32,202 nucleotides of DNA, taken from a virus. A program made the position numbers and the translations under genes. Of this stretch, positions 1 to 31,882 are shown piece by piece. The DNA lies in the IMG/VR virus record IMGVR_UViG_3300035666_000110, positions 1 through 32,202 of that record; one strand, written 5' to 3'. A model generated the notes under the pieces. That model saw only the letters and a list, made by a program, of their open reading frames with translations. It was not told where the DNA came from and did not search any database. Position 1 is the first letter of the stretch, and the number at the start of each line of letters is the position of its first letter.

Positions 1-792
1 CTTTGCTATGCTACCGAACGTAATAACTAGTGAAGAGTCAAACATCATAGTTGTACCGCCCTTGTTTTGCAATGTAGGCTGTCCCATTGGATGATCTGGT
101 TTTGCTACCCAAACTTTATTTATTGCCACGAGCGTGTTTGTATATTGCTGACTTTCTTTTCTGCTTAATACAATTTTTTGATTTATATAATTACCAAATT
201 GAGTTGACATAGCCCCAGCGGCCCACTCGTTATTATTTGTGGACTTTTCTATACTCATTCTACATGGTATCGATCCAACAGAATCCCAAAAGAAGCACAG
301 ATCATAAGGTAAATTACCTTTCTTTTGTTCGTCTAACATATCTGCTATAAAAGCTGATACATCCTCTATGCATTGTAATTTTTCTCTATCTACGTATACA
401 AAAAATCCGTTGTAATCCTTAACAACTCCGTCGTCGTCTGGGATTTCTTCAAACTGTAAACCCATTTGCCTTGCGTGCTCCCAACTCCATTTCATTTCTG
501 TGATTATGAAGACAGGTAATATTCCCATCTTTTGACAGGATACAGCAGCTTCTAGTAAGGCTGTAGTTTTTCCTGTGTCGGAGTGGCCACGTAAAAGCGT
601 TATGTGACCTACTGGTATACCTGGAATTTGTAGGGCTTCCATAAACGCCGATGACAGGGGGATCCATTTGTTGTCTTTGAACTTTATGGATACAGTAGAT
701 AAATTTTTGCTTTTTTTGAAGTTGTCAAGATTGAACTCCTTCTTTATTGCGCTAGATACGGAACTATTAAGCCCTACTTTAGCCTTAGCCAT
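1..792 (-). CDS. uvsX: UvsX-type recombinase, N-terminal 264 residues (3' end outside window)
   Basis: RecA-family strand-exchange protein of T4-like phages. It would coat single-stranded DNA with help from gp32 and drive recombination-dependent replication and repair. The frame is open from the ATG at 792 to the left edge. A Walker A loop GHSDTGKTT lies at residues 69-77 and a Walker B strand LCFFWDS at about 161-167. An NKVWVAK stretch and a GGTTMMFDSS segment follow, corresponding to the DNA-binding loop and C-terminal part of the RecA core. The N-terminal 45 residues are Lys- and Ser-rich, as in other UvsX proteins. T4 UvsX is about 390 residues, so roughly one third is missing beyond the window. 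The leader is A-rich with no Shine-Dalgarno. The gene lies just downstream of the gp32-like gene, its functional partner. Confidence 0.93.
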   Translation of the reverse strand, partial: MAKAKVGLNSSVSSAIKKEFNLDNFKKSKNLSTVSIKFKDNKWIPLSSAFMEALQIPGIPVGHITLLRGHSDTGKTTALLEAAVSCQKMGILPVFIITEMKWSWEHARQMGLQFEEIPDDDGVVKDYNGFFVYVDREKLQCIEDVSAFIADMLDEQKKGNLPYDLCFFWDSVGSIPCRMSIEKSTNNNEWAAGAMSTQFGNYINQKIVLSRKESQQYTNTLVAINKVWVAKPDHPMGQPTLQNKGGTTMMFDSSLVITFGSIAK

Positions 793-813
793 ACTTTACT
801 TGTTTTGTCTTGA

Positions 814-1629
814 TTAAAAATCGAATAAGTCGTCCAGCTTTTTATCTACTTCAGACTTAGGTGTACTTAAGGTAAACAACTCTGACTTTTTAGGGGCAGG
901 ATTATCCCAAGGTAAATCGCTAGCTGGCTCTTGTTTAGTAGATTGTTCGGTCTCTTCCACCGTTTCTTCAGGATTTAAGTGAGACATGAGATGAGATTTC
1001 ATATCGTCGTAACTGTAATTCTTAAAGAGTTCGTTGGGATTTGGTTGCTCTGATAACCAAAGTTTAACTTTATTTGCGTCGTCTGACAACGCAGTAACTT
1101 TAGTTTTGATACGAACTGTTGAGGTGTTGTAACTAAGACCAGTCTGCTCTTTACTCTGAGTCTCGACTAAAATGTCGCGACCTGAGATCACATCTGTGTA
1201 ATCGCCTACATCCTCGTCTTCCGCAATGGCCAATAACTCCATGTAAACTTGTTTACCGAATTCCCACAATCTAACGCCTTTGTCCTCTTCGTTTCTAACG
1301 ATTACGGGTACGAATACTCGCAATTTTGGATCCAATTTTTTTGCCAAAGACCAGTCTTCTTTGTTGGAAGATTTCCTGAGCTGTTGCGCAAATTCGATGA
1401 TTGGATCTTTTTGACCAAAACTCTTTGGCGAGATCATCGTTTTTTTGTTAATGTCGTAGTGAAAAAATAATTCCCGGAAAGGATTCGACTTATCGAACTT
1501 AGAGGGAACTATTCTTACCAAGTGTTTCCCTACAGCAGGTTTCCAAATTGTCTTGCTGTAATCTTTGCTTTGGCCGCTTCTTGGATTTTGTAATGCAGCC
1601 AAGCGATTTTTTAGTGCTTGAATGTCCAT
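814..1629 (-). CDS. 32: gp32-like single-stranded DNA-binding protein
   Basis: Binds and protects single-stranded DNA at replication forks and recombination intermediates, and would work with UvsX encoded just downstream. The 271-residue length is near T4 gp32 (301). The order matches the family: a basic N-terminal arm (LKNRLAALQ near residue 5) for cooperative binding, an OB-fold core starting with WKPAVGKHLVRIVP (about 29-42), and a Glu/Asp-rich flexible tail from about residue 215 ending DDLFDF. Such a tail recruits partner proteins. The whole protein contains no cysteine, so the zinc ribbon of T4 gp32 is absent. At its place is HYDINKK..SPKSFGQKDPIIEF (about 57-80). The start at 1629 gives the complete arm. 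The leader is AU-rich with an inverted repeat at 1644-1658; T4 gp32 autoregulates through an AU-rich leader, but that is only inferred here. Confidence 0.9.
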   Translation of the reverse strand: MDIQALKNRLAALQNPRSGQSKDYSKTIWKPAVGKHLVRIVPSKFDKSNPFRELFFHYDINKKTMISPKSFGQKDPIIEFAQQLRKSSNKEDWSLAKKLDPKLRVFVPVIVRNEEDKGVRLWEFGKQVYMELLAIAEDEDVGDYTDVISGRDILVETQSKEQTGLSYNTSTVRIKTKVTALSDDANKVKLWLSEQPNPNELFKNYSYDDMKSHLMSHLNPEETVEETEQSTKQEPASDLPWDNPAPKKSELFTLSTPKSEVDKKLDDLFDF

Positions 1630-1686: not shown

Positions 1687-2148
1687 TTATCTATCGAGTC
1701 CGCCTACTTCTATGACGTTATGTATAACCGTGTTTAACTTTCTTAAAGAATCACCTTGAGTTAATAGCATTGAGTTTTTGTAATCTTGCCAATTGATGCT
1801 AAACTTTGTGTCCAACACTCCGTAATTTAGTGATTTTATTAGAGTGTTTAATGCGTTAATGGTATACAGAGTGTTCGTATCTTTTTTACGGTGCAACAAA
1901 ATAGTATTAGGCAGTATGCGAGTTTTTATCGGAGATTCGTCTATCTCTATGTTGTAAGTACACATGTATTCATCCGACTCGGGACTGGCCAAAACAAAAA
2001 TCTTACCGTACATTATTCTGTACTGTCGATTAATTTTGTATATTGATTCTTGCAAATCTTCTTTGTGCGAAAACGTGCAAAATAGTTTGTTCATTATTTG
2101 CTCTCTTGTAAGTTCTATTTCCTTGTTCTTATAATTCATCGTAACCAT
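1687..2148 (-). CDS. Conserved-looking hypothetical protein, 153 aa, in the replication block
   Basis: I do not recognise a named family. The protein is soluble-looking, with mixed alpha/beta composition, no signal peptide and no membrane segment. The most distinctive part is the centre and C-terminus: TILLHRKKDTNTLYTINALN (about 82-101), then a WQDYKNSMLLT segment, which reads like a compact conserved fold. It lies between the family A polymerase-like gene and the gp32-like gene, with small gaps on both sides, so a role in DNA metabolism is a reasonable guess by position only. A second in-frame ATG three codons downstream (2139) is an equally possible start. A TATTTAT element overlaps the stop codon of the preceding gene at 2156-2165. 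Confidence 0.75.
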   Translation of the reverse strand: MVTMNYKNKEIELTREQIMNKLFCTFSHKEDLQESIYKINRQYRIMYGKIFVLASPESDEYMCTYNIEIDESPIKTRILPNTILLHRKKDTNTLYTINALNTLIKSLNYGVLDTKFSINWQDYKNSMLLTQGDSLRKLNTVIHNVIEVGGLDR

Positions 2149-2155
2149 TTATGTT

Positions 2156-2165
2156 AATAAATATC
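2156..2165 (-). promoter_or_regulatory. TATTTAT element upstream of the 153-aa gene
   Basis: Coding-strand GATATTTATT, the same core found before seven other genes in this window. Here it touches the stop codon of the preceding gene and ends only 7 nt before the start at 2148. If it is a promoter, transcription would begin at or after the first ATG, which would favour the second ATG at 2139. This is one of the less certain copies. Confidence 0.35.
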
Positions 2166-3475
2166 TATTTATTTTCGTAAAACGAATATGTTTCTCCGTA
2201 CTTGTACTTAACTTTCATGTCTCCCTTCTCTAGTATTTCTTTTATTCCAACTAACGTATCTTTACCATCGTTTGGATCGAAGTCAAACAAAAAAGAGTCG
2301 TAAGTTATCATAACAAGTTTTGTATTTGTCCCAACTAAAAATTCTCTCAACTCCAATATTTTATCTACGTTTTCTTTAGTTTCTAAATTTTGTATTGTGT
2401 AATTAAATAACTTCATAGGCGTCATATCTTCGTAATACTTAACTATTCTTCCAGTTGGAAGTTCAAACTGTCTATCGTTCGTATACTTTTGATATATGCC
2501 TGCTACGTACTCAGAAGTTTTTGCAAAAAACGGTATCTTTTCGTATTTCTTTTGTACGCCTCCATAAAGTTGTTTAAACGTTATTCCCTTAGATTCAGCG
2601 TACTCTTCTTGAGACACTTCTGATTTTCCAAAGTAAGATTTAGCTAAGTACGAGTGTACACTGTGCTCTTCTTTTGGAAATTGATAATCTATTAATTTTG
2701 CTATTAATCTTGGGTGATAAGCGTCGAAATCAAACTCTACAAAGTAATTATCTGCTACGAAACACTTTCTATATTCGCCTTCTTTTGGTATAGCTAAAAA
2801 GTTGATACCATTAAAAGAGTTGGTCGGTCTTCCTGTTAAATTGTACAAATTATAATAGGTTAGTAATTTACTTCCTATTGAAGAGTGGTGTAAACACTTT
2901 ATCTGGTAAGTCTTACTTGCACAATCTATATCTACGCCAACTCCGGATTCCTCTACGTACTTGTAAGCGGAGGTTAATTTATTTATAAAATCCGTATTAC
3001 GCTCTTTACCGAAATACTGTTTTACGCTGTCGTATTCGTTTTCGCAATATTCGTAGTGTTTACTCACCGGTATTATTTCGTTAACTGAATAATCTTCGTA
3101 ATACTTGTTATAAAAATCGTTGTGCAACTTTGTACGATGATCGATGTTTTCAAGAGAGTTCTTTTCGTCGAGTACGGAATGGTTTACATCTATTAAATTT
3201 TTGTGGTCAAAAAAATACGTGTGATATTTTTTATCAAGTACGTACAATTTATTGTGAGCCATCAAAAAATTCTTAATTAAATCAAAACTCAAACTAAAAG
3301 TTTCGTAATGCTTTACACAAAGCATGTACCCCTTGTTTCCAGGATTGTAATACACTAAAGTTGGACTATCTAAAGACGGATGACAATAATCGTTACCCGC
3401 TATTATTTTTATGTATGCGGTATCGACTGCTTGTAACTTTGAAAATTGTTCTTTGTTCTCTACGAGATAGTGCAT
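2165..3475 (-). CDS. Compact, divergent family A DNA polymerase-like protein (436 aa)
   Basis: Probable DNA polymerase of the Pol I (family A) type. The palm/fingers signatures occur in the right order: TGRPTNS at 214-220 and NFLAIPKEGEYRKCFV at about 225-240 (Pol I: TGR..S, LQNIP...G..IR..F). Motif A is DFDAYHPRL at 249-257, motif B is KGITFKQLYGG at 296-306 (Pol I: K..NFG..YG), and motif C is TYDSFLFDF at 391-399. The metal-binding aspartates would be D249 and D393. Two usual residues differ: the motif A glutamate (E710 in E. coli Pol I) is H254, and the motif C HDE is YDS. At 436 residues it is about half a typical phage Pol I. The N-terminal 200 residues show no clear exonuclease motifs. 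T4 itself uses a family B polymerase, so this is either a replacement or an accessory enzyme. Confidence 0.7.
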   Translation of the reverse strand: MHYLVENKEQFSKLQAVDTAYIKIIAGNDYCHPSLDSPTLVYYNPGNKGYMLCVKHYETFSLSFDLIKNFLMAHNKLYVLDKKYHTYFFDHKNLIDVNHSVLDEKNSLENIDHRTKLHNDFYNKYYEDYSVNEIIPVSKHYEYCENEYDSVKQYFGKERNTDFINKLTSAYKYVEESGVGVDIDCASKTYQIKCLHHSSIGSKLLTYYNLYNLTGRPTNSFNGINFLAIPKEGEYRKCFVADNYFVEFDFDAYHPRLIAKLIDYQFPKEEHSVHSYLAKSYFGKSEVSQEEYAESKGITFKQLYGGVQKKYEKIPFFAKTSEYVAGIYQKYTNDRQFELPTGRIVKYYEDMTPMKLFNYTIQNLETKENVDKILELREFLVGTNTKLVMITYDSFLFDFDPNDGKDTLVGIKEILEKGDMKVKYKYGETYSFYENK

Positions 3476-3526
3476 TAACCTTTATTTTCCATCTAACATA
3501 ACAACTAATTGATTACGAACGAATTT

Positions 3527-4156
3527 TTATTTTTCGGTAGGTTTTGCGAATTGATCGTATTTTTCACCTATAAATTCTTTTATGCCTAGAAAAGACTTAT
3601 TCGCGTCTTCTACCAATCTTTTATTTGTGTCTATTATTCCAGTGCGGATATCGTATTGAGATACTCTCTTTTGATTCAATGGGCCAGTGAGTTTCCAAAA
3701 CAGACCTATAGCTTGATACATACTGATATCGTAATCTGCTGTACCGTTTTTTATGGAATTATACTCTTGTTCAGACACCTCTGTGACGTATCCCTGTTGA
3801 TTTATTCGTTTAACGAAATACCTAATTACGTATCCCTTATCGTAATCGCTCTTAAGAGGCGAAGGATAATAAGGCACAGGAGCAGACTGGGATTTACCAG
3901 TTAGCTTTGCTTGTTTGGTTAATGTTCTAATAGACTTAGCAGATAAACTCTGACCAGCGACTCCTGGTGCGTTTGTGTAATCTTCTATTTTGGTTAACTC
4001 TATAGACGGACCAATTATCGGATCTGGACCTGAGAAAGCTCTTCCATCGAAAGTCAAATGATACTTACCAGAATAAGGAATTCCCGATTCGGTGTATTCG
4101 TTACCTGAAGTGGTCAAATTCGTCTTTACTTTTGATTTAGGATAATATCTTATCAT
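3527..4156 (-). CDS. Probable virion or baseplate-associated protein, 209 aa
   Basis: Function not recognised. It starts 4 nt after the stop of the hub-lysozyme gene, so it is almost certainly co-expressed with the tail genes. It begins MIRYYPKSKVKTNLTT and is rich in Tyr, Pro and Gly in its first half (SGKYHLTFDGRAFSGPDP). The second half is more helical: GYVIRYFVKRINQQGYVTE (about 109-127), a segment around WKLTGPLNQKRVSQYDIR (about 155-172), and a final amphipathic helix. No catalytic motif, signal peptide or membrane segment is visible. Position at the end of the baseplate block, just before the replication genes, suggests a small structural or assembly component. That is inference from context. 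Confidence 0.72.
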   Translation of the reverse strand: MIRYYPKSKVKTNLTTSGNEYTESGIPYSGKYHLTFDGRAFSGPDPIIGPSIELTKIEDYTNAPGVAGQSLSAKSIRTLTKQAKLTGKSQSAPVPYYPSPLKSDYDKGYVIRYFVKRINQQGYVTEVSEQEYNSIKNGTADYDISMYQAIGLFWKLTGPLNQKRVSQYDIRTGIIDTNKRLVEDANKSFLGIKEFIGEKYDQFAKPTEK

Positions 4157-13746: not shown

Positions 13747-14487
13747 TTAAATTTTGTAATAAATTTTATGCGTATTTAAGAATTCGTAATACTTACTACC
13801 CTCTCTTCTTTTTATTCCTCTATTTAAGTAATCATGAATAAATGAATAATGCATGTTTAATTTTTTGGCCAATTCAGTAGCTGAAGCTGCTTCGTGTACA
13901 GTACCATCTTTTAAATTTTCGCAAACTACTTTTCCAAGAGATCCTATATTTTTATAAGCTTCTTTGGATCTATTTTTAGCTTTCTCTGATATTTTCTTCT
14001 TGGTACTTTCAGATCTTTTTTGGCCTACACTTTTGTTGCTGTTTATCCAACCCTCATTTAAGTATTTTTGAAGATCTTTAGCATCAATTTGTCTAATATC
14101 TTTAGTTATTGGATTAATTATCCACTTTTTGCCCTTATGCTTTGATCCTATATTTTTTTTGTGAGTTTCTGATTTTTTTCTTTTCCAAAAAGACATCAAA
14201 GTTTCCCTCGCTTGCTTATATTCTATTTCAGAGATTACTCTTTTACCATCATAAGACATTCTGTGAAATGACCAATATACTTTATGGCAATATATTGGAT
14301 GATGTTTGAAGCATTCTACAAGTATTTTGTGCGCCCTATAGTGCTCTTCCGGGGTTAATAATACTGTGCTACTTTTTTTATCGAAAGATTTTGGAATTAT
14401 GTGATGAGATTCGTAATAACCTCCATCGCCCTTTTGTCTATTTTGTGATATCGCTTTTCTAATTAATTTAAAATAAGTACTTAGCAT
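13747..14487 (-). CDS. Free-standing HNH homing endonuclease (246 aa)
   Basis: Selfish DNA endonuclease that would cut phage relatives lacking it and spread by recombination. An HNH centre lies near the N-terminus: SHHIIPKS at 27-34 with H28/H29, then LLTPEEHYRAH at 43-53 with H49 and H53. The asparagine often found before the LTPEEH segment is replaced by Ser/Thr. Downstream are DNA-binding modules typical of such enzymes: SETHKKNIGSKHKGKKW and SESTKKKISEKAKNRS (NUMOD3-like, about 106-122 and 159-174). An 'EGW' element lies near 145, and a final HTH-like NUMOD1 segment ASATELAKKLNMHYSFIHDYL at about 201-221. Flanking tail genes are intact, so it is an intergenic insertion, not intron-borne. 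Its gap carries a hairpin and a GGGAG ribosome-binding-like sequence, unlike its neighbours. Confidence 0.88.
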   Translation of the reverse strand: MLSTYFKLIRKAISQNRQKGDGGYYESHHIIPKSFDKKSSTVLLTPEEHYRAHKILVECFKHHPIYCHKVYWSFHRMSYDGKRVISEIEYKQARETLMSFWKRKKSETHKKNIGSKHKGKKWIINPITKDIRQIDAKDLQKYLNEGWINSNKSVGQKRSESTKKKISEKAKNRSKEAYKNIGSLGKVVCENLKDGTVHEAASATELAKKLNMHYSFIHDYLNRGIKRREGSKYYEFLNTHKIYYKI

Positions 14488-17554: not shown

Positions 17555-18214
17555 TTAACTAAGAGTAATTGTTGCATATTGTCCTGGGATTGTACCGATT
17601 CTTGGAGAAAATGCTGAATTATCAACACCAGCGATTCCACTAAAGAAGGCACCGGCGGCACCAACGTTTATAAAGAATATACTAAAGTTAGCAGCACCTG
17701 ATCCAAAAGTTTGATAGGCTGGGTTACCAGGCAGAGAGCCTTTACTAAAATCTCTAAAAAAATATCCAGTTAGTCCTAATCCCCCCTCTATGGGAAAATT
17801 AGCCCCGAATCCAGCATAAATTACTGAAAAACCATCTATATTTACTCCAGATATGGTACAACCTATTCTATTATTTATTACTCTAACATATCCAATATCA
17901 TTACGTATGATATCAGCATTTAAACTAACTGGATAATTCGTAGAATCTAACAATATACTATTTGCATTTGGATTTTTAATCGCAAGTTGTGCTTGTACAT
18001 TATTTCCCAATTTTACATACGGAGAATTATTTTTCCAATTTCCAGATAATCTATTCCATGATCTATTTCTTCTAGAAGATCCATTAACTTCGTTTTGATT
18101 ATTGTAAAGAAATGATCCGTCTCCAGCTTGAAATTGAAAATTAGTAGTCAAACCAGATTGTAAGCCTGCTCTTTGAGATATTACATCTCCGTCTACAGTT
18201 AATCGATCACTCAT
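17555..18214 (-). CDS. Unknown virion-associated protein at the end of the adhesion cassette (219 aa)
   Basis: Not recognised. It begins with a Ser/Asn/Arg-rich stretch (NQNEVNGSSRRNRSWNR, about 38-54). The middle is beta-rich, with ISLNAD-like strands and IGCTISGVNIDGFSVIYAG (about 117-135). The last 80 residues are Gly/Ala/Phe-rich and hydrophobic (FSIFFINVGAAGAFFSGIAG). This composition is common in beta-sandwich or fibre tip proteins, but no family is clear. Its ATG overlaps the stop of the 723-aa paralogue (ATGA), so it is translationally coupled to that putative adhesin. It may be a partner, chaperone or cap of that protein; this is inference from the overlap. Confidence 0.68.
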   Translation of the reverse strand: MSDRLTVDGDVISQRAGLQSGLTTNFQFQAGDGSFLYNNQNEVNGSSRRNRSWNRLSGNWKNNSPYVKLGNNVQAQLAIKNPNANSILLDSTNYPVSLNADIIRNDIGYVRVINNRIGCTISGVNIDGFSVIYAGFGANFPIEGGLGLTGYFFRDFSKGSLPGNPAYQTFGSGAANFSIFFINVGAAGAFFSGIAGVDNSAFSPRIGTIPGQYATITLS

Positions 18215-20382
18215 ATAAGTAATAATTTTGCGTATACATTAGTATCTCTTGGTATTAATCTCGTTGGTACAAATCTTCTTCTTGTCCCAATTATATTATT
18301 TCCCAATCCAGTAACCCAAGCTTCTCCATTCCAATATTCAAATATTCCATTAGATGTTCCTTTAGAATCTTGAGTTAATAACAACTTATCGTCTTGAAAT
18401 CTATATACTTCTATCACATATTGATGAGGACTATTATATAAATCTACTTGAATCCATGCAAAAGTTCCATTATTAATATTGGAATCATTTACATTCCACC
18501 TATAAAAAGATGCTATACTTTCTTGATCTTCATATAAGAGCGCCAAAGATAAAACTCTAGCAGGTAACATCATAGAACCCATTGTCCTAAATTGAAACGC
18601 AAATTGTATTTCACTACTTGGTGTAACTTGATACAAATTACCGTCTTGTCTTGCATCAATCCAACTGCCACTATTGTTAGATATTCCAGAAGTTCTATAT
18701 TGTAGCTTATACATATCTGGAGTTACGCCAAATTTACTATCTCCTATATTCTTTGCGCAATTTATTAATACCCTATAATATTTTGTAGGAATTATTCCTA
18801 AATTTATTCTTGGACAAATTATTCTGTTAGTTACTACATTTGTATATTCTAAATCTGCAGCCATAGGATACGCCGTAAATGAATTTACTGTCGTAGTGGT
18901 TGCAGAAGTGTAATTAAAAAACATCCATCCATCTTTAGCTGATAGGGTTGGTGAGTTTCCTGGAATTATGTGTGCAAATGGAGTAGAGTTTTTATTTTTT
19001 AATATGTTTGGTAATTGAGATGTTATAACTGGACTGCGTCTATTAAACGAACTAGTTATATTATAAATATCTCTGGGTATACCTGTAGTAGATATTAAAT
19101 CAGTAGCGTAGAGGCTCCCGCTTCCTACTATCATTAGTATCTTTCCTGTTATTTCGTCAATGGTTACGCTTGTAAAATTACCCGTAGATACATTTGTGTT
19201 GACACCACCTGGTTTATTATCTGTTGCTGATAATCCTAATTCAATATTTATAAATAGGCTAGATGATCCATTAAGTATGTACTCCAATGGAGTTCCATAA
19301 ACGCCACCACCAATACCAAATCCTGGGGTTGTATAAAAATATATGGAAGCTGTGTTTGCTAATCGACCTGTGGGAAGAGTACCTATAACTCCATTATTTT
19401 GAGTCGCTAATGGAGCCAAAGAACCAGAAGATTGATCATACGTTGTAAAAGATCCTGTTTGCACTCCGGCGCTTAACGATGTTAAGGGAGCTCTAAAATT
19501 AGTAAAACCGAGTCTAAGAGGTTGAAATTGCGGGCCTGCTTGAGCAACTATATACGCACTTTGAGTTGTCCAAGATTGAAAATTTGAAAAGTCAGTACCG
19601 CATATTGCTCCTCCAGCGGTAGATAATCCATATACTGCTTTTATTTTATCTATAGTACCTGCGGCTGGTATATTAGTTGCCGGAATTTTAAAATCTTCGT
19701 ATCTTAATCCCTTAGCTACAAACAAATTATTGCTATTAGATTGTGCTTGCAATATCATAAGATCTTGAATCACATAAGGAGTTCCTAGAGACGCTGATAA
19801 GCTTCCTGTTATAGTTATTGAAGTATCAGAATTTATACTATGAATTTGATACCAAGACACTATCTGTATAGGGTCTGTATTTCCAAATCCTATCCTAGAG
19901 CCAGCTGATAAACCAGTATTCCAAGTAGTACTAGAGCCAGTAATTTGATTGCCTATGGCAGATATACTTCCAGTAGTATAATTCGCTAAAACAGCTCTTG
20001 TGGATATTGCAGTAGCGCTACCTCCTCCAGGAAAATTTAAAGTAATAGCGCCTACAAAAGTATAAGTATTGGTAGAAGGAACAAATGTCCAAAGTTGCAC
20101 TCGTCTTGTAGTAGAAGCTGCAGCTGCATCATTTCCAAATATCCAATATAAATCTTCATTAATCTTTACAATAGAATACATACTTGACGGTATTGCCAAT
20201 TGTGTATTTCCGTTATTTGCAATATCTATGGGATTCGGGCCGATGAATTTATCAACCTCTCCAGATCCCAAATTATATTGTCCTACATGAGGACCTCTAT
20301 TGATTTTATCTGGATCATAGACACCAGTTATTGGAACTTGCTGTATTGACCCATCAAATATTTGTTCAATAGCTACTTTCAT
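18211..20382 (-). CDS. Large tail adhesin-like protein, downstream paralogue (723 aa)
   Basis: Putative tail-associated structural or receptor-binding protein, paralogous to the 712-aa protein encoded directly upstream. Both begin MKVAIEQ.FDGSIQQV, then GQYNLGSGE.DKF.GP (about 34-49), DLYWIFG (about 78-84), and an immunoglobulin-like insert around TTGSISAIGNQITGSSTTWNTGLSAGSRIGFG (about 134-165). Inserts of that last type are common in phage virion proteins. The C-terminal 230 residues also match closely (RIICP.INLG, PDMYK.QYRTSG, MLPARVLSLAL.YE, GTRRRFVP). The middle, about 270-470, is poorly conserved between the two. No pectinase, peptidase or lysozyme motif is visible. Its start abuts the stop of the 712-aa gene with no gap. 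It is followed by the overlapping 219-aa gene. Confidence 0.78.
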   Translation of the reverse strand: MKVAIEQIFDGSIQQVPITGVYDPDKINRGPHVGQYNLGSGEVDKFIGPNPIDIANNGNTQLAIPSSMYSIVKINEDLYWIFGNDAAAASTTRRVQLWTFVPSTNTYTFVGAITLNFPGGGSATAISTRAVLANYTTGSISAIGNQITGSSTTWNTGLSAGSRIGFGNTDPIQIVSWYQIHSINSDTSITITGSLSASLGTPYVIQDLMILQAQSNSNNLFVAKGLRYEDFKIPATNIPAAGTIDKIKAVYGLSTAGGAICGTDFSNFQSWTTQSAYIVAQAGPQFQPLRLGFTNFRAPLTSLSAGVQTGSFTTYDQSSGSLAPLATQNNGVIGTLPTGRLANTASIYFYTTPGFGIGGGVYGTPLEYILNGSSSLFINIELGLSATDNKPGGVNTNVSTGNFTSVTIDEITGKILMIVGSGSLYATDLISTTGIPRDIYNITSSFNRRSPVITSQLPNILKNKNSTPFAHIIPGNSPTLSAKDGWMFFNYTSATTTTVNSFTAYPMAADLEYTNVVTNRIICPRINLGIIPTKYYRVLINCAKNIGDSKFGVTPDMYKLQYRTSGISNNSGSWIDARQDGNLYQVTPSSEIQFAFQFRTMGSMMLPARVLSLALLYEDQESIASFYRWNVNDSNINNGTFAWIQVDLYNSPHQYVIEVYRFQDDKLLLTQDSKGTSNGIFEYWNGEAWVTGLGNNIIGTRRRFVPTRLIPRDTNVYAKLLLI

Positions 20383-22521
20383 TTATAAAACTATAATTTT
20401 TGCGTAAAGATCTACGCTTCCTGGTAGAGATCCAGATGGAACAAATCTTCTCCGAGTTCCAACAGTATTAGTTCCTAATCCTCCCGCCCAAACGCTTCCA
20501 TTCCAAAATTCAAAAGCTCCGTTTATACTGCCTGTAGATGATTGTGTTAATACTAATGCGTTGGTGTCTGCTCTATATATTTCTATGCTATGAGTTGGTA
20601 AAGATCCAAACAGGGAATTTTGAATCCACGCAAAAGATCCAGTCGCAGAATTAAAATCACTAAAATTCCATCTATATTGAGTAGGTAATGAATCTATTGT
20701 TTCGTATATCAAAGCTAAAGATAATACTCTAGCAGGTAACATTATTACTCCAAGCGTTCTAAATTGAAATGCAAATTGTATAGATGATGCTGGCAAAACT
20801 CCAGATAAATTTCCATTTTGTGTAACATCTGTCCAAGCTCCACTATTATCATCTATTCCTGAAGTCCTGTATTGAACTTTATACATATCTGGAGCTAATC
20901 CCATATTAAAGTCTCCTATGTTTTGCATTCCATTCACTAATACTCTATAAAATTGAGAGGGATTTGATCCTAAATTTATTTTAGGACAAATTATTCTATT
21001 ATTTTCATCTGCTTGAGTATCAAAATCTGCTGCCAATGGATAAGCAGTGAGTGCATTTGTATTGGTTGTTGTTGCAGTACCATACATCCAAAATAACCAT
21101 CCATCTTCAACAGATATAAATGGAGCAGCACCTATCGGTACGTGGACAAACATTGGACTGTCTAAATCCCTTAAAGAAGATGGAATTTGAGAAGATAAGC
21201 ATGTAGATCTTCTATCTAGCTGTTGACCTCCTGTATAATAATCACTAACATACATAGTACCATTTGCACCTGCAGTTAAAATAATTAACTTATCTATAGT
21301 TTTAGCTACATCAAAAGATAAAAATGTACCTGTAGATATATTTGTATTAGTAGTTCCAGGAGGTACTTCTGACATTGAATCAGCTAAAAATGTTGTATTA
21401 CCTGTTGTGACACTTCCTGTGGGTATTCTAAGTATTCTAGTTGATGTAAAACAATAAAGGCTTGGCACTCCTAATCCAGATCCATGATTCAAAGTTGCTA
21501 CGCGGCCATTATTATTTTGCGATATGTTACCCGTAACAGTTTGTGTGCCTGTGATTACTACATCGCTACCCGATAACGCTATTTGGCCAGCAGTTAATGG
21601 AGTTAATGCGGCTCTTAGATTATATCTATACATCTGTAGTGAAGTAGCAGATCCTTCTGTGCAATACACGTATTGTTGACTCCAAGAATCAAAATTTCCA
21701 ACTGCGCAGCCTCCAATAACATCGTTAGTCACGGTTGCGGCATCTTTTAACCAATAAGTTGCTTTTATTTTATCAGCAACAGACGCAGATGGTATAGACT
21801 TTGGGGAAGCTTGAAAATCTTCATATCTAAGTCCCTTTGTAACAAATAAACCTCCGTTTGTTGCAGTTGCTGCTGTTACTGCTTGCACCATCATTAGATC
21901 TTGAATAACATACGGAGATCCAGAAGCGACTGTACCTGCTGAAGAACTTATAGTCATTTGAGTGTCGCTGCTTATAGTTGCCACTTCATACCAAGTAGAT
22001 ATTGCATCAGGATTTGTTGATCCGAATCCTATCCTAGAACCTACTGAGATTCCCGTATTCCAAGTCGTACCTGAGCCTGTAACCGTAGTAGCGTTAACTG
22101 TAACGCTTCCAGTTGTATAGTTCGTAAGAATTGCAGTTAATCCCCTAAAAGTTTTATTAGTTAGAACTGGATAGTTTACAAGTATGGCTCCAACAAAAGT
22201 GTAAGTTGCTGTAGACGGTACGTATGTCCACAATTGAATTCTTCTAGTTACTGCAGCAGCTGCTATATCAGCGCCAAAAATCCAATACAAATCGTTATTT
22301 ATTTTTACAGCACTCACTATATTTGATGGCATTGCCAAAGAAGATTCTCCAAAATTTGCAACTCCCAATGGCGCTGGACCTACAAACTTATCTATTTCGC
22401 CCGAACCTAAGTTGTATTGCCCTGTATGTTTTCCTCTATTTATTTTAGTAGAATCGTAAGATCCAGTGATGTCTACTTGTTGGATTGATCCATCAAAAAC
22501 TTGCTCTATTGCAACTTTCAT
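20383..22521 (-). CDS. Large tail adhesin-like protein, upstream paralogue (712 aa)
   Basis: Tandem paralogue of the 723-aa protein that follows it. The shared N-terminal region (about 1-205) includes INRGKHTGQYNLGSGEIDKF, DLYWIFG and the TTGSVTVNATTVTGSGTTWNTG insert, which in phage structural proteins usually forms a small beta domain ending in SGSPYVIQDL. The shared C-terminus (about 480-712) ends in GTRRRFVPSGSLPGSVDLYAKIIVL. The middle third differs from its partner in sequence and in indels, as expected if that part contacts receptors. The number of Ser/Thr/Asn/Gly residues is high and there is no membrane segment. It begins 17 nt after the 141-aa gene and lacks a visible Shine-Dalgarno. 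Confidence 0.78.
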   Translation of the reverse strand: MKVAIEQVFDGSIQQVDITGSYDSTKINRGKHTGQYNLGSGEIDKFVGPAPLGVANFGESSLAMPSNIVSAVKINNDLYWIFGADIAAAAVTRRIQLWTYVPSTATYTFVGAILVNYPVLTNKTFRGLTAILTNYTTGSVTVNATTVTGSGTTWNTGISVGSRIGFGSTNPDAISTWYEVATISSDTQMTISSSAGTVASGSPYVIQDLMMVQAVTAATATNGGLFVTKGLRYEDFQASPKSIPSASVADKIKATYWLKDAATVTNDVIGGCAVGNFDSWSQQYVYCTEGSATSLQMYRYNLRAALTPLTAGQIALSGSDVVITGTQTVTGNISQNNNGRVATLNHGSGLGVPSLYCFTSTRILRIPTGSVTTGNTTFLADSMSEVPPGTTNTNISTGTFLSFDVAKTIDKLIILTAGANGTMYVSDYYTGGQQLDRRSTCLSSQIPSSLRDLDSPMFVHVPIGAAPFISVEDGWLFWMYGTATTTNTNALTAYPLAADFDTQADENNRIICPKINLGSNPSQFYRVLVNGMQNIGDFNMGLAPDMYKVQYRTSGIDDNSGAWTDVTQNGNLSGVLPASSIQFAFQFRTLGVIMLPARVLSLALIYETIDSLPTQYRWNFSDFNSATGSFAWIQNSLFGSLPTHSIEIYRADTNALVLTQSSTGSINGAFEFWNGSVWAGGLGTNTVGTRRRFVPSGSLPGSVDLYAKIIVL

Positions 22522-22976: not shown

Positions 22977-24326
22977 TTACGATGATATATCTCCATATAA
23001 ATACCATTCATCTGTACCAATTTTTACTAAATTGGCAAAACCATATCTTGCAGAGATTTTTGTAAAATTACTCCTACTTCTGACTGTTACTCCAGAACCA
23101 GATGCAAATGATGTCTGCCCTGCTCCATATTGAGTTACTGTAAATCTTGAATATAGTGGAATAGCCACACTTGCATTTGTTGGTATAGTCAATGTATTTG
23201 CAGAACCAGAATCAATTTCTACTAATCTACCTATGTCTATTCCTGCCAAAGTGTAAGAACCAGTTTTTCTAGTTGTATAGAAAAATAAAGTATTCGATAC
23301 ATCATATTGGAAATAATAATCTCCATCTAATCCTCCAGTAGGCGCAGTTGGTCCTGAAGTTATCACCTTATTTGCACCAACAGTGTTGTAACTAGCGGTA
23401 AAAGCTACAGATCCGTCGAAAGAAGTACCTGGTGCTGATCCGCTGCCGGAAGCATTAAAGAATAGAGAGTTTGTAGTAGTTCCGCCACCACCTCCTCCAC
23501 CGCCTCCAGAACCAGTGTTAACAGTTATTGGAAACGTACTTCCGTCTCCTTTAGTAAACGTAATAGTATTTAATGAGATCGAAGCTGTAATTAATGCATT
23601 GGGAGTATTAGATGCTGTTAGTGCACTTATCGACCAACTAGAGGTTCCAAATAAAGACCCACTAAATACTCCAAAGAAAGATCCAGTAAATGATCCCGTA
23701 CCAGATTGTGCTACGCTCGCAGTGACTGCATAGGACGCACTGGTCGATGTAGAAGATGTTAAGGCGTTGATTGACCAACTAGAAGTTCCAAATAATGACC
23801 CAGAATAACCCTGAGTAGCTGTAACTGATCCTGTAACTATTAAACTACCTGTTATAACAGCAGAACCACTAAATGGGAATCCTGCGCCAGATCCTCCTCC
23901 CGCTGAACCTGTATTAACGGTTATTGGAAAAGTACTACCATCACCTTTAGTGAATGTTATTGTATTTAAGTTTACAGACGCAGTTACTAGCGCATTAGGC
24001 GTAAAAGATGCAGTTAAAGCATTTATTGCCCAACTAGCTGTGCCGAATAAAGATCCTGTAAATCCTCCAAGACTAGTAATACTTCCTGTAACAAATAAAG
24101 ATCCGCTAACATTGGCTCCTATTATTTGCCAACTCACTTCTAATGATGGCTGAGCTGCATTTACTAAAACATAAATAGTATCGTTATCTCTTTGATACAC
24201 TATCAAGCCTTCATATACGTTAGCAACAGACAAACCAAGTCTAGCTGTAGCATTTGCCACACTAAATCTAGCATCTACTGGTTCTGTGCTAGTGACATTA
24301 AATCCTGCAGGTAGTATTATAGGCAT
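22977..24326 (-). CDS. Tail fibre protein with repeat modules and a conserved C-terminal tip (449 aa)
   Basis: Probable trimeric tail fibre. An N-terminal region (DARFSVANATARLGLSVANVYEG, about 18-40, followed by GLIVYQ and TIYVL) resembles phage fibre attachment domains. Residues about 73-282 hold Ser/Thr/Ala repeats, with two copies of the NTITFTKGDG core (from residues 121 and 253) and several GSLFGT(A/S)S units. A run of nine glycines (about 274-282) acts as a flexible hinge. The C-terminal 120 residues have YYFQYDVSNTLFFY, IGRLVEIDSGSANTLTIPTN, VTQYGAGQTSFASGSGVTV and VKIGTDEWYLYGD. That last module is common at the ends of marine phage fibres. It starts 3 nt after the stop of the 542-aa fibre gene. 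Confidence 0.85.
   Translation of the reverse strand: MPIILPAGFNVTSTEPVDARFSVANATARLGLSVANVYEGLIVYQRDNDTIYVLVNAAQPSLEVSWQIIGANVSGSLFVTGSITSLGGFTGSLFGTASWAINALTASFTPNALVTASVNLNTITFTKGDGSTFPITVNTGSAGGGSGAGFPFSGSAVITGSLIVTGSVTATQGYSGSLFGTSSWSINALTSSTSTSASYAVTASVAQSGTGSFTGSFFGVFSGSLFGTSSWSISALTASNTPNALITASISLNTITFTKGDGSTFPITVNTGSGGGGGGGGGTTTNSLFFNASGSGSAPGTSFDGSVAFTASYNTVGANKVITSGPTAPTGGLDGDYYFQYDVSNTLFFYTTRKTGSYTLAGIDIGRLVEIDSGSANTLTIPTNASVAIPLYSRFTVTQYGAGQTSFASGSGVTVRSRSNFTKISARYGFANLVKIGTDEWYLYGDISS
23481..23966 (-). repeat. Two fibre-module repeats in the 449-aa gene
   Basis: A complete module at 23966-23778 (NTITFTKGDG core, Gly-rich linker, FPFSGSAVITGSLIVTGS, GSLFGTSS) and a second core plus Gly linker at 23570-23481 that then switches to a different domain. 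The DNA is also similar to the copies in the other two fibre genes, so homologous exchange between them is possible. Confidence 0.8.
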
Positions 24327-24329
24327 AGC

Positions 24330-25958
24330 TTATGTTAAATCATAGGTTATAGTTGTTCCTGCACCTCCAGCTTGAAGTAAAATAGTTCTGTACACTTTAT
24401 AATCTCCAAGAGACGACGAAGTAAATGAACTTAAAACTCCAAATCCCGATGATTGTATATTGGTTAAAAAGGCTAAAGAGGAGTTATATACTATATAGTG
24501 GTACTTATCTCCAGTCCATGTTATAGTTGTTGATTGTCCAGGATTTGTAACAGTGCCTTTAGATATAATTCCCACATTTCCACCTATAGTAGTATCCCAA
24601 CCTCCAATATTTTCTATTTCATTTTGAGTTAAACTCGAAGATACTGAAGCTCCAGATCTTAGACTTCTTATCTTTGTAAATGTACTAGTTGCCAACGCAG
24701 TAGTAACTAAGGCCGGACTATTATCTGATCCATTAACGCCTGAAGAAGAGTATGATGACGTAGCTCCAAACACTATGCTCGCCGATCCTGTCAATGATCC
24801 TGTAACAAATATGGGGCTTGTTCTAGAAGAAGTTACAAAATTTAATACCCATCCATTTGCAGCTCCAGAAGCTGTCACGTAAGTGATACTTCCAGTCGCG
24901 CCTTGTTCTATTTGATTTGATGATGCTCCTAATTGAATACTAGCTGTTGGGGTTATGGTTGGAGCTCCAGGATTTGTTTTGCTAAGAGTGCCTGCCAAAG
25001 ATGCACTTTGTACAAGAATAGATCCATTCGCTGGATTACTTGCTGTTATTTGTAAAAGATAAGTGTGACTTCCAGAATCCAAAGTTTGATATGATAATGT
25101 AGTACCAACTCCTGTTTGGGCCAATAATACGCCACCTTCAAATATCGAAGCAGATATTAAAGTGTATCCTGCATTTGACCACGCAGCTGAAGCTGTGTAA
25201 TCGTCCAATACTTTATTAAACCTATCAGTTATAAATGTAGAATTAAAAGAAAACGAAGATATAGAGTGAGTGGCTGGATTTCCAAATATAAATTTAAGTC
25301 TACCTGCGGTAAAGTCTACAGCAACGTCTGTAGAATAATCTAATACTTCTATTTGTGATAAAGATTGTAGACTACTAGTAACGTACTGTATATTAGATAA
25401 GTTTGCGTAACTTGAAGATAATGCATACGACGAGCTTATTGCTTGACTCGCAGTTCCAAATAAAGAAGCAGTAACTCCTTGAGTGGCTCTAATTGATCCT
25501 GTAACTACTAAGCTACCAGATATAATAGCCGAACCAGTGAATGGAAAATCAGAAGCACCTCCACCTCCACCGCCTGAACCAGTATTTACTGTTAATGCAA
25601 ATGTAGAACCATTGCCTTTGGTAAAAGTTATAGTATTTGAGTTAACTGATGCTGTTACTATAGCATTGGGCGTAGTAGAAGCTGTAGCTGCAGTAGTTGC
25701 AAACGAAGCTGATGATATGCTTCCTAATAAGAAAGATGCTGTAGCTGCGTAAGAACTACTTAATGCTTGTAATGCATAAGATGCAGTTGCACTTCCACTA
25801 GACGATAATCTTTGTATAGATTCAGAAACGCCATTGCTCTGTTTAAAAAATATTACTCCATCTGTAGTATTTATGGCTAATTCACCTAATGCCAAATCTT
25901 GGACAGTGGGTTGAGTACCTACAGCAGAACTATTTTTTAATATTATTCTAATTGACAT
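24330..25958 (-). CDS. Tail fibre protein with one repeat module (542 aa)
   Basis: Probable tail fibre. The N-terminus, MSIRIILKNSSAVGTQP followed by VQDLALGELAINTTDGVIFF (about 19-38), is the typical phage fibre attachment domain ('i.lkr.......P....l..GELaiNt.dg.iy'). Ser/Ala 'SSYAATAS' repeats follow, then one copy of the NTITFTKG module from residue 108 with a seven-glycine linker. A middle region of beta type carries PTITPTASIQLGASSNQIEQGATGS (about 305-330). The C-terminal 120 residues include KIRSLRSGASVSSSLTQNEI, WDTTIGGNVG and GDKYHYIVYNS, ending in a Gly/Ala-rich strand pair. The leader contains two hairpins and a TATTTATA element 19 nt before the start, so this gene probably begins its own late transcript. 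Confidence 0.85.
   Translation of the reverse strand: MSIRIILKNSSAVGTQPTVQDLALGELAINTTDGVIFFKQSNGVSESIQRLSSSGSATASYALQALSSSYAATASFLLGSISSASFATTAATASTTPNAIVTASVNSNTITFTKGNGSTFALTVNTGSGGGGGGASDFPFTGSAIISGSLVVTGSIRATQGVTASLFGTASQAISSSYALSSSYANLSNIQYVTSSLQSLSQIEVLDYSTDVAVDFTAGRLKFIFGNPATHSISSFSFNSTFITDRFNKVLDDYTASAAWSNAGYTLISASIFEGGVLLAQTGVGTTLSYQTLDSGSHTYLLQITASNPANGSILVQSASLAGTLSKTNPGAPTITPTASIQLGASSNQIEQGATGSITYVTASGAANGWVLNFVTSSRTSPIFVTGSLTGSASIVFGATSSYSSSGVNGSDNSPALVTTALATSTFTKIRSLRSGASVSSSLTQNEIENIGGWDTTIGGNVGIISKGTVTNPGQSTTITWTGDKYHYIVYNSSLAFLTNIQSSGFGVLSSFTSSSLGDYKVYRTILLQAGGAGTTITYDLT
25449..25637 (-). repeat. Fibre-module repeat in the 542-aa gene
   Basis: One complete module: NTITFTKGNG core (a G-N-G variant of the usual G-D-G), Gly linker, FPFTGSAIISGSLVVTGS and SLFGTAS. 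It is closest by eye to the modules in the 828-aa gene, which read almost identically from FPFTGSAIISGS onward. Confidence 0.8.
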
Positions 25959-29395: not shown

Positions 29396-31882
29396 TTAAT
29401 ATATTATATATTGTGTGTTATTAGAACTTAAGTTTATTGCGTTAAATGGATTATCTATGTTTACTATTGTTCCATCATCTATCAAACTAAAATCTATTGC
29501 ATATATAGTTGCTAAACCATCTATTAATTTTATTATATATTGATTTTTATTTCCTAAAGCTGTTGGTAATATAAAAGTATTTACCCCTTTTGAATTATAA
29601 ATATATGTGTCTCCATTTCCAGAAGGAATTGATATTGTTTGGTTATTAACTTCTATTATATTTACAGAATTTCCTCCGCCTCCGCCACCTGTAACTGTAA
29701 TAGGAAAAGTAGTTCCATCTCCTTTTGTAAAAGTAATAGTATTTGATGATATTGATGCTGTTACTAAAGCATTAGGAGTAAAAGACGCAGTAAAAGCTAA
29801 AGATGCTGTAGCGATGCTTCCCAATAAAAAAGAAGCAGTAAGCGCCAAACTACTAGTTTCAGCTTGACTTGCAGTACCAAATAAAGATCCAGTAATTCCT
29901 TGAGTTGCAATTATAGAACCTGTTACTATTAAGCTGCCAGATATAATAGCAGAACCAGTAAAAGGAAAATCAGAGATGCTTCCACCGCCACCACCGCCAC
30001 TACCTGTATTTACTGTTAGTGGAAATGTAGTTCCATCTCCTTTAGTAAACGTAATGGTATTTAGATTAATTGAAGCCGTAATTATATTAGTTAATGCTAT
30101 TGATGAAGTAACAGCGAAACTACTAGATATTGATTGACTTGACGTAATAGAGTATGTACCTATTGCTAAAAAAGAAGCAGTAGCTGCATTAGTTGCAATA
30201 GAAGCTGTTGCTACACTCATTGAACTCGTCTGAGATACTAGTAAGTACTGGGTAAGCATCGATGCTGTACTACTATTTAATACATAAGCAGGGGCAAAAG
30301 AAGCTGTTTGTGTAAAAGAAGAACTAATTGCTTGACTTGCAGTACCAAATAAAGATCCAGTATATCCCAAAGTCGAGATAATAGAACCTGTTACTACTAA
30401 GCTACCTGATATAATAGCTGATCCAGTAAATGGAAAAGTACTTCCACCTCCTCCACCACCACTACCTGTATTTACAGTAATTGGGAATGTGCTACCATCT
30501 CCTTTAGTAAATGTAATAGTATTAAAATTTACTGAAGCTGTTAAAATATTATTTAAAGCCAAAGATGCCGTTACAGTTCTAGATGAGCTGACAGCAAATG
30601 ATGCACTAAGTGCTGTTGATGCAGTAACTGCGGCATTTATCCATACACTTCCACTTCTTACTAATCCTTGACCAGTTTCAGGACTTATTATTTTAACATC
30701 ATGTAATTCATCTAATTCGAATCCATTGTCAATTCTAACATACATTGAACCATTATTCAATTGTACTCTTAATACTTGACCTAATCTTACTGCGTGTAGT
30801 GGAGCCTGTGGAGCTGAACCTGTCATTGATCCACTTGATGCTAAAAATAATAACTGTCCTGCTGTATAATTAGATGTATCTATACCTAACAACTTACCTT
30901 CTGTCATTACGTAACCAAAAGCTTGATCAGGTATATTTTCATTAGTTAATCCTAAAGTATTAGCTGAATTTGTATCGTCAGTCCAATCCGCTAAAGAAAT
31001 ATTAGCATTATCTCCTGTAGCTCCTGATATTCTAACAACTTTTCCTTTATCGATTTGTACTCCAGTTACATTCTTTACATAAATTAAAACGTCTTGAGCA
31101 TTACGAGCACCATCAGCAAATGAAGCTGTTAAAGCATAAGATGAACTTATAGCATTTAAAATAGAACCGCTAAAAAAAGAAGCTGTTGCAGCAAATGAAG
31201 AAGAAACTGCATACGATGAACTTATAACATTTAAAGCCCAACTAGCAGTTCCAAATAAAGAACCTGTATATCCTTGGGTCGCTGTTATTGATCCTGTTAC
31301 TACTAAGCTGCCCGAAATTATGGCAGACCCCGTAAAAGGAAAATCAGAAGCACCGGCGCCTCCAGAACCTGTGTTAACTGTAATAGGGAAAGTACTTCCA
31401 TCCCCTTTAGTGAAAGTAATAGTGTTTTGAGATACGGACGCAGTTACTAAATTATTCAATGCTATTGATGCAGTAATTGCTCTAGAGGAACTTATAGCAA
31501 ATGAAGCGCTTAGTACGCTCATCGAGCTCGTCTGTGAAGTTAACACGTATGGTGCTAACATTGAAGATGTACTACTATTCAATACGTAAGCCGGCGCAAA
31601 AGAAGCTGTTTGTGCAAAGCTACTTGAATTTGCTTGGCTTGCTGTAATTGCATATGTGCCTGATTGTAAAGTAGATGCAGTTGCGGCATTAGTAGCAAAT
31701 GATGCACTTGCTACACTTCCCAATAAAAAAGAAGCAGTGAGAGCCAAACTACTAGATATTGCTTGACTAGCAGTGCCGAATACTGATCCAGTGATTCCAT
31801 TTGTCACGGTCCAGCTTCCACTGACTACGCCAGAACCACTTATTATTATGGAACCTGATATTACTGGACTATATATTCTCAT
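29396..31882 (-). CDS. Long modular tail fibre protein (828 aa)
   Basis: Probable long tail fibre shaft. Ser/Ala/Thr-rich repeats of the type SLALTASFLLGS, SSSFAQTASFAPAYVLNSST dominate. Four copies of the NTITFTKGDG core start at residues 153, 454, 608 and 714; the first three are followed by a Gly-rich linker and FPFTGSAIISGSL.VTGS, then GSLFGTAS. Between the first and second modules, residues about 262-400 form a different domain (VKNVTGVQIDKGKVVRISGATG, DQAFGYVMTEGKLLGIDTSNY, ELDELHDVKI) that is common in phage fibre proteins. The last 90 residues carry an unrelated tip (INIIEV-like strand, TYIYNSKGVNTFILPTALGN). A segment of residues 85-125 is repeated near 525-560 (FAPAYVLNSST.SML). A TATTTATA element lies 20 nt before the start. 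Confidence 0.85.
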   Translation of the reverse strand: MRIYSPVISGSIIISGSGVVSGSWTVTNGITGSVFGTASQAISSSLALTASFLLGSVASASFATNAATASTLQSGTYAITASQANSSSFAQTASFAPAYVLNSSTSSMLAPYVLTSQTSSMSVLSASFAISSSRAITASIALNNLVTASVSQNTITFTKGDGSTFPITVNTGSGGAGASDFPFTGSAIISGSLVVTGSITATQGYTGSLFGTASWALNVISSSYAVSSSFAATASFFSGSILNAISSSYALTASFADGARNAQDVLIYVKNVTGVQIDKGKVVRISGATGDNANISLADWTDDTNSANTLGLTNENIPDQAFGYVMTEGKLLGIDTSNYTAGQLLFLASSGSMTGSAPQAPLHAVRLGQVLRVQLNNGSMYVRIDNGFELDELHDVKIISPETGQGLVRSGSVWINAAVTASTALSASFAVSSSRTVTASLALNNILTASVNFNTITFTKGDGSTFPITVNTGSGGGGGGSTFPFTGSAIISGSLVVTGSIISTLGYTGSLFGTASQAISSSFTQTASFAPAYVLNSSTASMLTQYLLVSQTSSMSVATASIATNAATASFLAIGTYSITSSQSISSSFAVTSSIALTNIITASINLNTITFTKGDGTTFPLTVNTGSGGGGGGSISDFPFTGSAIISGSLIVTGSIIATQGITGSLFGTASQAETSSLALTASFLLGSIATASLAFTASFTPNALVTASISSNTITFTKGDGTTFPITVTGGGGGGNSVNIIEVNNQTISIPSGNGDTYIYNSKGVNTFILPTALGNKNQYIIKLIDGLATIYAIDFSLIDDGTIVNIDNPFNAINLSSNNTQYIIY
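29672..31426 (-). repeat. Four fibre-module repeats in the 828-aa gene
   Basis: Three full modules at 31426-31241, 30523-30335 and 30061-29867, and a core-only copy at 29743-29672. At DNA level the AAGCT.CC.GATATAATAGC segment and the Gly-codon runs are nearly identical among copies and with the copy in the 542-aa gene. Long similar tracts in one orientation could recombine, shortening or lengthening the fibre. Confidence 0.8.

Follow-up and report, generated by a model that had tools for sequence, protein, structure and literature searches.

The window, as we call the whole 32,202-nucleotide stretch analysed here, is a 32-kb fragment of an IMG/VR virus and, apart from the genes described below, consists mostly of a T4-like tail gene cluster, in which tail sheath, tail tube and baseplate hub genes were recognised. 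The first gene past the tail genes, PolL, is followed by orf153, by the gene for a gp32-type single-strand DNA-binding protein (SSB) and by an incomplete RecA/UvsX-like gene, the last in the same position as RecA in relatives (Table 1). A sequence-only reading had pointed to a 436-residue open reading frame at this locus carrying TGR and motifs A, B and C in order. Our analysis confirmed this frame and the reported motif positions and placed the gene on the minus strand; an ORF check of the plus strand found no open frame across 2165-3475.

Table 1. Genes around PolL and motifs and regions within it (window coordinates; residue numbers are those of PolL unless Pol I is named)
Feature	Position	Strand	Basis or correspondence
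PolL, 436-aa thumbless family A polymerase (divPolA1 member)	2165..3475	-	ORF, profiles, model
orf209, final tail-cluster gene and conserved neighbour on the upstream side of PolL	3527..4156	-	neighbourhood comparison
orf153, obligate downstream partner gene of PolL	1687..2148	-	79/79 loci
gp32-type single-strand DNA-binding protein	814..1629	-	PF08804 E 2e-12, phrog_1192 E 4e-20
RecA/UvsX-like recombinase, incomplete at contig end	1..792	-	Walker A GHSDTGKT in translation
Residues 1-160 (N-terminal region), fold like an exonuclease but no exonuclease motifs	2996..3475	-	structural alignment
Residues 183-213, remnant at the place of the Pol I thumb, between GVxID and TGR	2837..2929	-	spacing, model
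TGR, residues 214-216	2828..2836	-	R216 = Pol I R668
Motif A DFDAYHPR, residues 249-256	2708..2731	-	D249 = D705, H254 = E710 (steric gate)
Motif B KGITFKQLYGG, residues 296-306	2558..2590	-	K296 = K758, F300 = F762, Y304 = Y766
QNLET motif	2378..2392	-	Q362 = Q849; E365, T366 invariant in family
Motif C TYDSF, residues 391-395	2291..2305	-	D393 = D882, S394 = E883, Y392 = H881

Several other features of the window's tail region were observed. An HNH homing endonuclease-like ORF of 246 aa (YYESHHIIPKSF; 13747-14487, minus strand), which had no Pfam match above the cut-off, lies between the baseplate hub and tail tube genes. Two adjacent minus-strand ORFs of 723 and 712 aa (18211-20382 and 20383-22521), with almost identical starts (MKVAIEQ[IV]FDGSIQQV), look like tandem duplicates, and the tail-fibre-like proteins encoded at 22977-25958 and 29396-31882 (minus strand) contain many repeats of the types GSLFGTAS and NTITFTKGDGSTFPITVNTGSGGGG.

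Used alone as a query, the window protein had no match in Pfam, PHROGs or PDB sequence searches and a weak one in NCBIfam. A translated search identified gp001 of the Flavobacterium phage immuto, annotated as a DNA polymerase of family A (36% identity, 98% coverage, E 3e-66), together with partial matches in Microcystis phage Mel-JY01 and in an uncultured phage of 484 kb (LR756508). The immuto relative passes the PF00476 model with 42.7 bits; the window protein misses this cut-off because it is too diverged for the model, and both its fold and the profile comparison agree on family A. At least 560 PolL loci were confirmed among the first 600 candidates in IMG/VR, and PolL was also present in three metagenome-assembled bacterial records, two of which are labelled Flavobacteriales and Flammeovirgaceae. 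These labels are in keeping with Bacteroidota hosts, though the host given for Mel-JY01 is Microcystis; a literature search on this phage found nothing. In one copy (L167:2262-3596), PolL is split by a single in-frame stop into 2262-2741 and 2745-3596, which is either an error or a real interruption.

An AlphaFold2 model of PolL built on 69 window and IMG/VR sequences (pLDDT 93.5, pTM 0.91) had as its best structural matches Pol I-type DNA polymerases throughout. Foldseek returned the apicoplast polymerase with E 1e-19 and Klenow with a TM of 0.75-0.76 by model length, and VIA aligned 410 of the 436 residues with the Bst large fragment (Z 26.1, rmsd 3.8 A), the alignment spanning 1..433 of the model and 300..876 of Bst. 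In addition, a profile from four family sequences matched Klenow with E 3.4e-5, and comparison of the polymerase halves by hhalign gave E 2.6e-8. With these matches and the fold, a chance occurrence of the motifs can be set aside. Profile search and structure prediction against Pol I, which the sequence-only reading had suggested as a check, agree with each other, and the fold is that of Pol I rather than that of a non-polymerase protein.

Although PolL and the Klenow/Bst large fragment have a common fold over 410 residues and share TGR and motifs A, B and C, PolL departs from Pol I in lacking the thumb and the exonuclease motifs and in carrying E710->His, R754->Tyr, H881->Tyr and E883->Ser. 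The spacing from GVxID to TGR is 34 residues in PolL compared with 120 in E. coli Pol I, and thus a thumb of ~86 residues is missing; the model has one short helix, 183-190, in what remains. PolL is also 25 residues shorter than Pol I between the Tyr766 and Gln849 positions. Sequence profiles did not detect an exonuclease in the N-terminal part, and neither DxE nor any other exonuclease motif was conserved among 74 homologues. The absence of an evident exonuclease motif had been remarked on from the sequence, and that observation stands, with the refinement that the N-terminus aligns structurally with the end of Pol I that holds the exonuclease domain. Because the alignment runs from PolL residue 1 onto Bst residue 300, the exonuclease end of the large fragment is what the N-terminal part of PolL matches, and by arithmetic no fewer than 134 of PolL residues 1-160 must be aligned. 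According to the model, then, the 3'-5' exonuclease domain appears to be present but inactivated in PolL, as in divPolA1.

Alignment with E. coli Pol I equates H254 with E710 and S394 with E883, in agreement with the earlier observation of His for the motif A Glu and Ser for the motif C Glu, and places Y292 at the R754 position. Our first conservation count, on 74 homologues, was biased because motifs A and C had served as search patterns in the scan; the count was repeated, free of this bias, on loci found by N-terminal patterns and on loci found through the neighbour gene orf153. D249, H254, K296, Y304 and D393 were still invariant in the repeat samples. The lack of conservation of D249 and D393 that would have spoken against a polymerase was therefore not seen. 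Among the aligned sequences of the orf153-found loci, R216, D249, H254, K296, F300, Y304, Q362, E365, Y392 and D393 were never replaced and Y292 and D251 were variable; the E883 position held Ser or Ala, and the R754 position held Tyr, Gln, Thr, Pro, Ala or Val, never Arg. In Pol I, Arg754 contacts the triphosphate. Homologue pairs with an estimable dS gave dN/dS values of 0.03-0.34. From this invariance and these dN/dS values, we infer that selection acts on the family to retain both metal-binding Asp residues and the fingers Lys and Tyr, with His fixed at the steric gate. It is this fixation that makes H254 of interest; the sequence-only reading had suggested that the H254 and S394 changes could affect sugar selectivity and fidelity. 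The motif C Ser, on the other hand, is by sequence comparison ordinary and not special, since other phage PolAs have HDS (Twort, HMO-2011), HDA (Muddy) or, in the full-size PolA of PolL's own lineage, HDQ at this place.

The genes flanking PolL are conserved. Tail genes are followed by orf209, PolL, orf153, SSB, RecA, 5' nuclease, DnaB and ribonucleotide reductase in 85 loci, as far as the contigs reach. The nuclease is a Pol I-type 5'-3' exonuclease (PF02739/PF01367), so that both halves of Pol I are found in one cluster. PolL lies directly upstream of orf153 in all 79 loci with enough sequence there, and a search of 50,697 phage records found PolL and orf153 in the same six, the other weak PolL matches being ordinary PolA genes. 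The orf153 product (~150 residues) gave a confident model (pLDDT 86), for which structure search yielded no significant PDB match; the best VIA matches, polyomavirus T-antigen origin-binding domains, had a Z of 4.9, which is below the level to trust, and were set aside. One locus (L001) is ~680 bases longer than its near-identical counterparts L002 and L003 in the interval from the RecA-like gene to the 5' nuclease gene, which may reflect an insertion.

The sequence-only reading had left two possibilities for the small Pol A, namely that it replaced gp43 or that it is an accessory polymerase. We scanned 18 records (15 IMG/VR records, immuto, Mel-JY01 and LR756508) for a full-size polymerase. 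Full PolA was present in 10 of the 15 IMG/VR contigs (frames of 768-783 aa) and in immuto (777 aa), and Mel-JY01 and the 484-kb LR756508 carry PolB in its place. One of the contigs, the 27-kb L002 (G001), combines a PolL copy 98% identical to that of the window with a full PolA frame of 783 aa. No full polymerase was seen in the remaining five scanned records, all of them fragments (29-70 kb), and every scanned record of at least 77 kb has one. No regular polymerase is visible in the window, whose own replicase cannot be seen because the window is a fragment. Given the full PolA or PolB of the relatives, including the contig with the 98%-identical copy, a replacement of gp43 is not supported and PolL as sole replicase was rejected, and an accessory polymerase fits the second polymerase of these genomes. 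The same phages' full-size PolA, of which immuto gp199 (777 aa) shares a genome with a relative of PolL, is likewise of family A but, unlike PolL, has exonuclease motifs, Arg754, the steric-gate Glu and HDQ in motif C. Sequences of this full-size PolA (L087-L095, L004:37898-40231) have HDQ for HDE and, where Pol I has Phe762, Leu. In the 484-kb phage, the PolB (L096, LR756508 258000-268000) seems to be interrupted by intein-like sequence (CFTPGHEIVTKDG) and split over separate frames, and in immuto the annotated 7-deazaguanine DNA modification genes QueC, QueD, QueE, FolE and DpdA lie near the full-size PolA (L004:18607-37015).

PolL is a new member of an already described family. In 2024, Yutin et al. 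described divPolA1 from 14 phages including immuto, and the passage of their paper on this family presents it as an extra PolA beside the regular polymerase, with a truncated thumb, an inactivated exonuclease, conserved palm residues and replication genes downstream, and probably still a polymerase (PMC11348598). Among the papers searched, the name divPolA1 occurs only in this one and its preprint. The type case, immuto gp001, resembles PolL in size, in the lost thumb and exonuclease motifs and in its palm residues; both have replication genes directly downstream, and the immuto genome has a second, regular polymerase. We see no basic difference between divPolA1 and PolL, and the family now extends to at least 560 IMG/VR loci, the 484-kb phage and a Microcystis phage. 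The divPolA2 of barbaviruses is, according to the part of the same paper that treats it, also an extra thumbless PolA beside a regular polymerase, but differs in its variable neighbourhood and in an N-terminal globular domain unrelated to Pol I (PMC11348598); PolL aligns with the Pol I large fragment from residue 1 and so does not belong there. In a phylogenetic tree, PolL formed a single clade (bootstrap 100) on a long branch. We considered a recent duplication of the phage's PolA, and a sister relation of PolL and full PolA gave an AU value of 0.216, which neither supports nor rejects it. The divPolA1 passage of PMC11348598 does not treat the fixed E710H, the lost Arg754 or orf153 as partner gene, although these may be published.

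We predict, with a probability of roughly 60%, that PolL is an active but poorly processive accessory polymerase beside the regular DNA polymerase of large tailed phages. Activity is favoured because the Asp pair, K296, F300, Y304 and Q362 are invariant in the orf153-found loci and dN/dS is low. The enzyme would bind primer-template weakly and, for that reason, copy short stretches, filling gaps or extending recombination or Okazaki intermediates covered by gp32, and it would work with gp32, UvsX and the separate Pol I-type 5' nuclease. The fixed steric-gate His would probably tune nucleotide choice, and orf153 may, at a guess, supply the grip on DNA once given by the thumb. Two points argue against activity: Arg754 is replaced in every sequence of the family that we examined, and DNA binding without a thumb may be too weak for synthesis by PolL alone.

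The same losses could be explained if PolL were a non-catalytic scaffold, a pseudo-polymerase that keeps its fold, binds DNA, nucleotide or a partner, and organises gp32, UvsX and helicase. Inactivated polymerase copies act as scaffolds elsewhere, and the missing thumb and exonuclease motifs, the replacement of Arg754 and Glu710 and the strict partnership with orf153 are all compatible with such a role. However, dead polymerases usually lose the equivalents of the catalytic Asp residues, Lys758 and Tyr766, and in the PolL family all four stay unchanged across loci that were collected independently of these residues. We regard a scaffold as unlikely, though it is the likeliest of the rivals, followed by a replisome role and then by RNA synthesis. 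As a core replisome polymerase, PolL would synthesise, for example, one strand, leaving something else to the full-size PolA or PolB. Its constant presence where orf153 is found accords with this, as does its place in a conserved replication cluster, the regular polymerase being among diverse genes (this analysis and the divPolA1 passage of PMC11348598), but cluster position alone cannot separate gap filling from a replisome role. Missing thumb, proofreading and Arg754 speak against long accurate synthesis; moreover, the full-size PolAs keep their exonuclease motifs, and a full-size polymerase occurs in every scanned record of at least 77 kb. We regard a replisome role as improbable.

A primase or an RNA polymerase derived from PolA was considered because the steric-gate Glu is lost (E710H is invariant) and because YDSF in motif C resembles the HDSF of T7 RNA polymerase; the location beside gp32 and DnaB would also suit an RNA-making enzyme. 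The idea is weakened by the gp61/DnaG-type primase that each of the five records no shorter than 158 kb carries and by the occurrence of HDS and HDA in ordinary phage PolA, and structurally the best matches of PolL are DNA polymerases without exception, leaving RNA synthesis a very slim prospect. One could also envision, more speculatively than the accessory polymerase favoured here and with rather little likelihood, that PolL works as a two-part polymerase with orf153 standing in for the thumb, and that the fixed His and the loss of Arg754 give it another substrate, be it rNTP, modified dNTP or a non-templated reaction, for use on gp32-coated recombination intermediates.

To what is known of divPolA1, the present analysis adds the fixed E710H, the loss of Arg754, the ordinary nature of the motif C Ser and the strict pairing with orf153, and divPolA1 is a common protein of large aquatic phages. 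If PolL is active without a thumb, it would show the minimum that the Pol I core needs.
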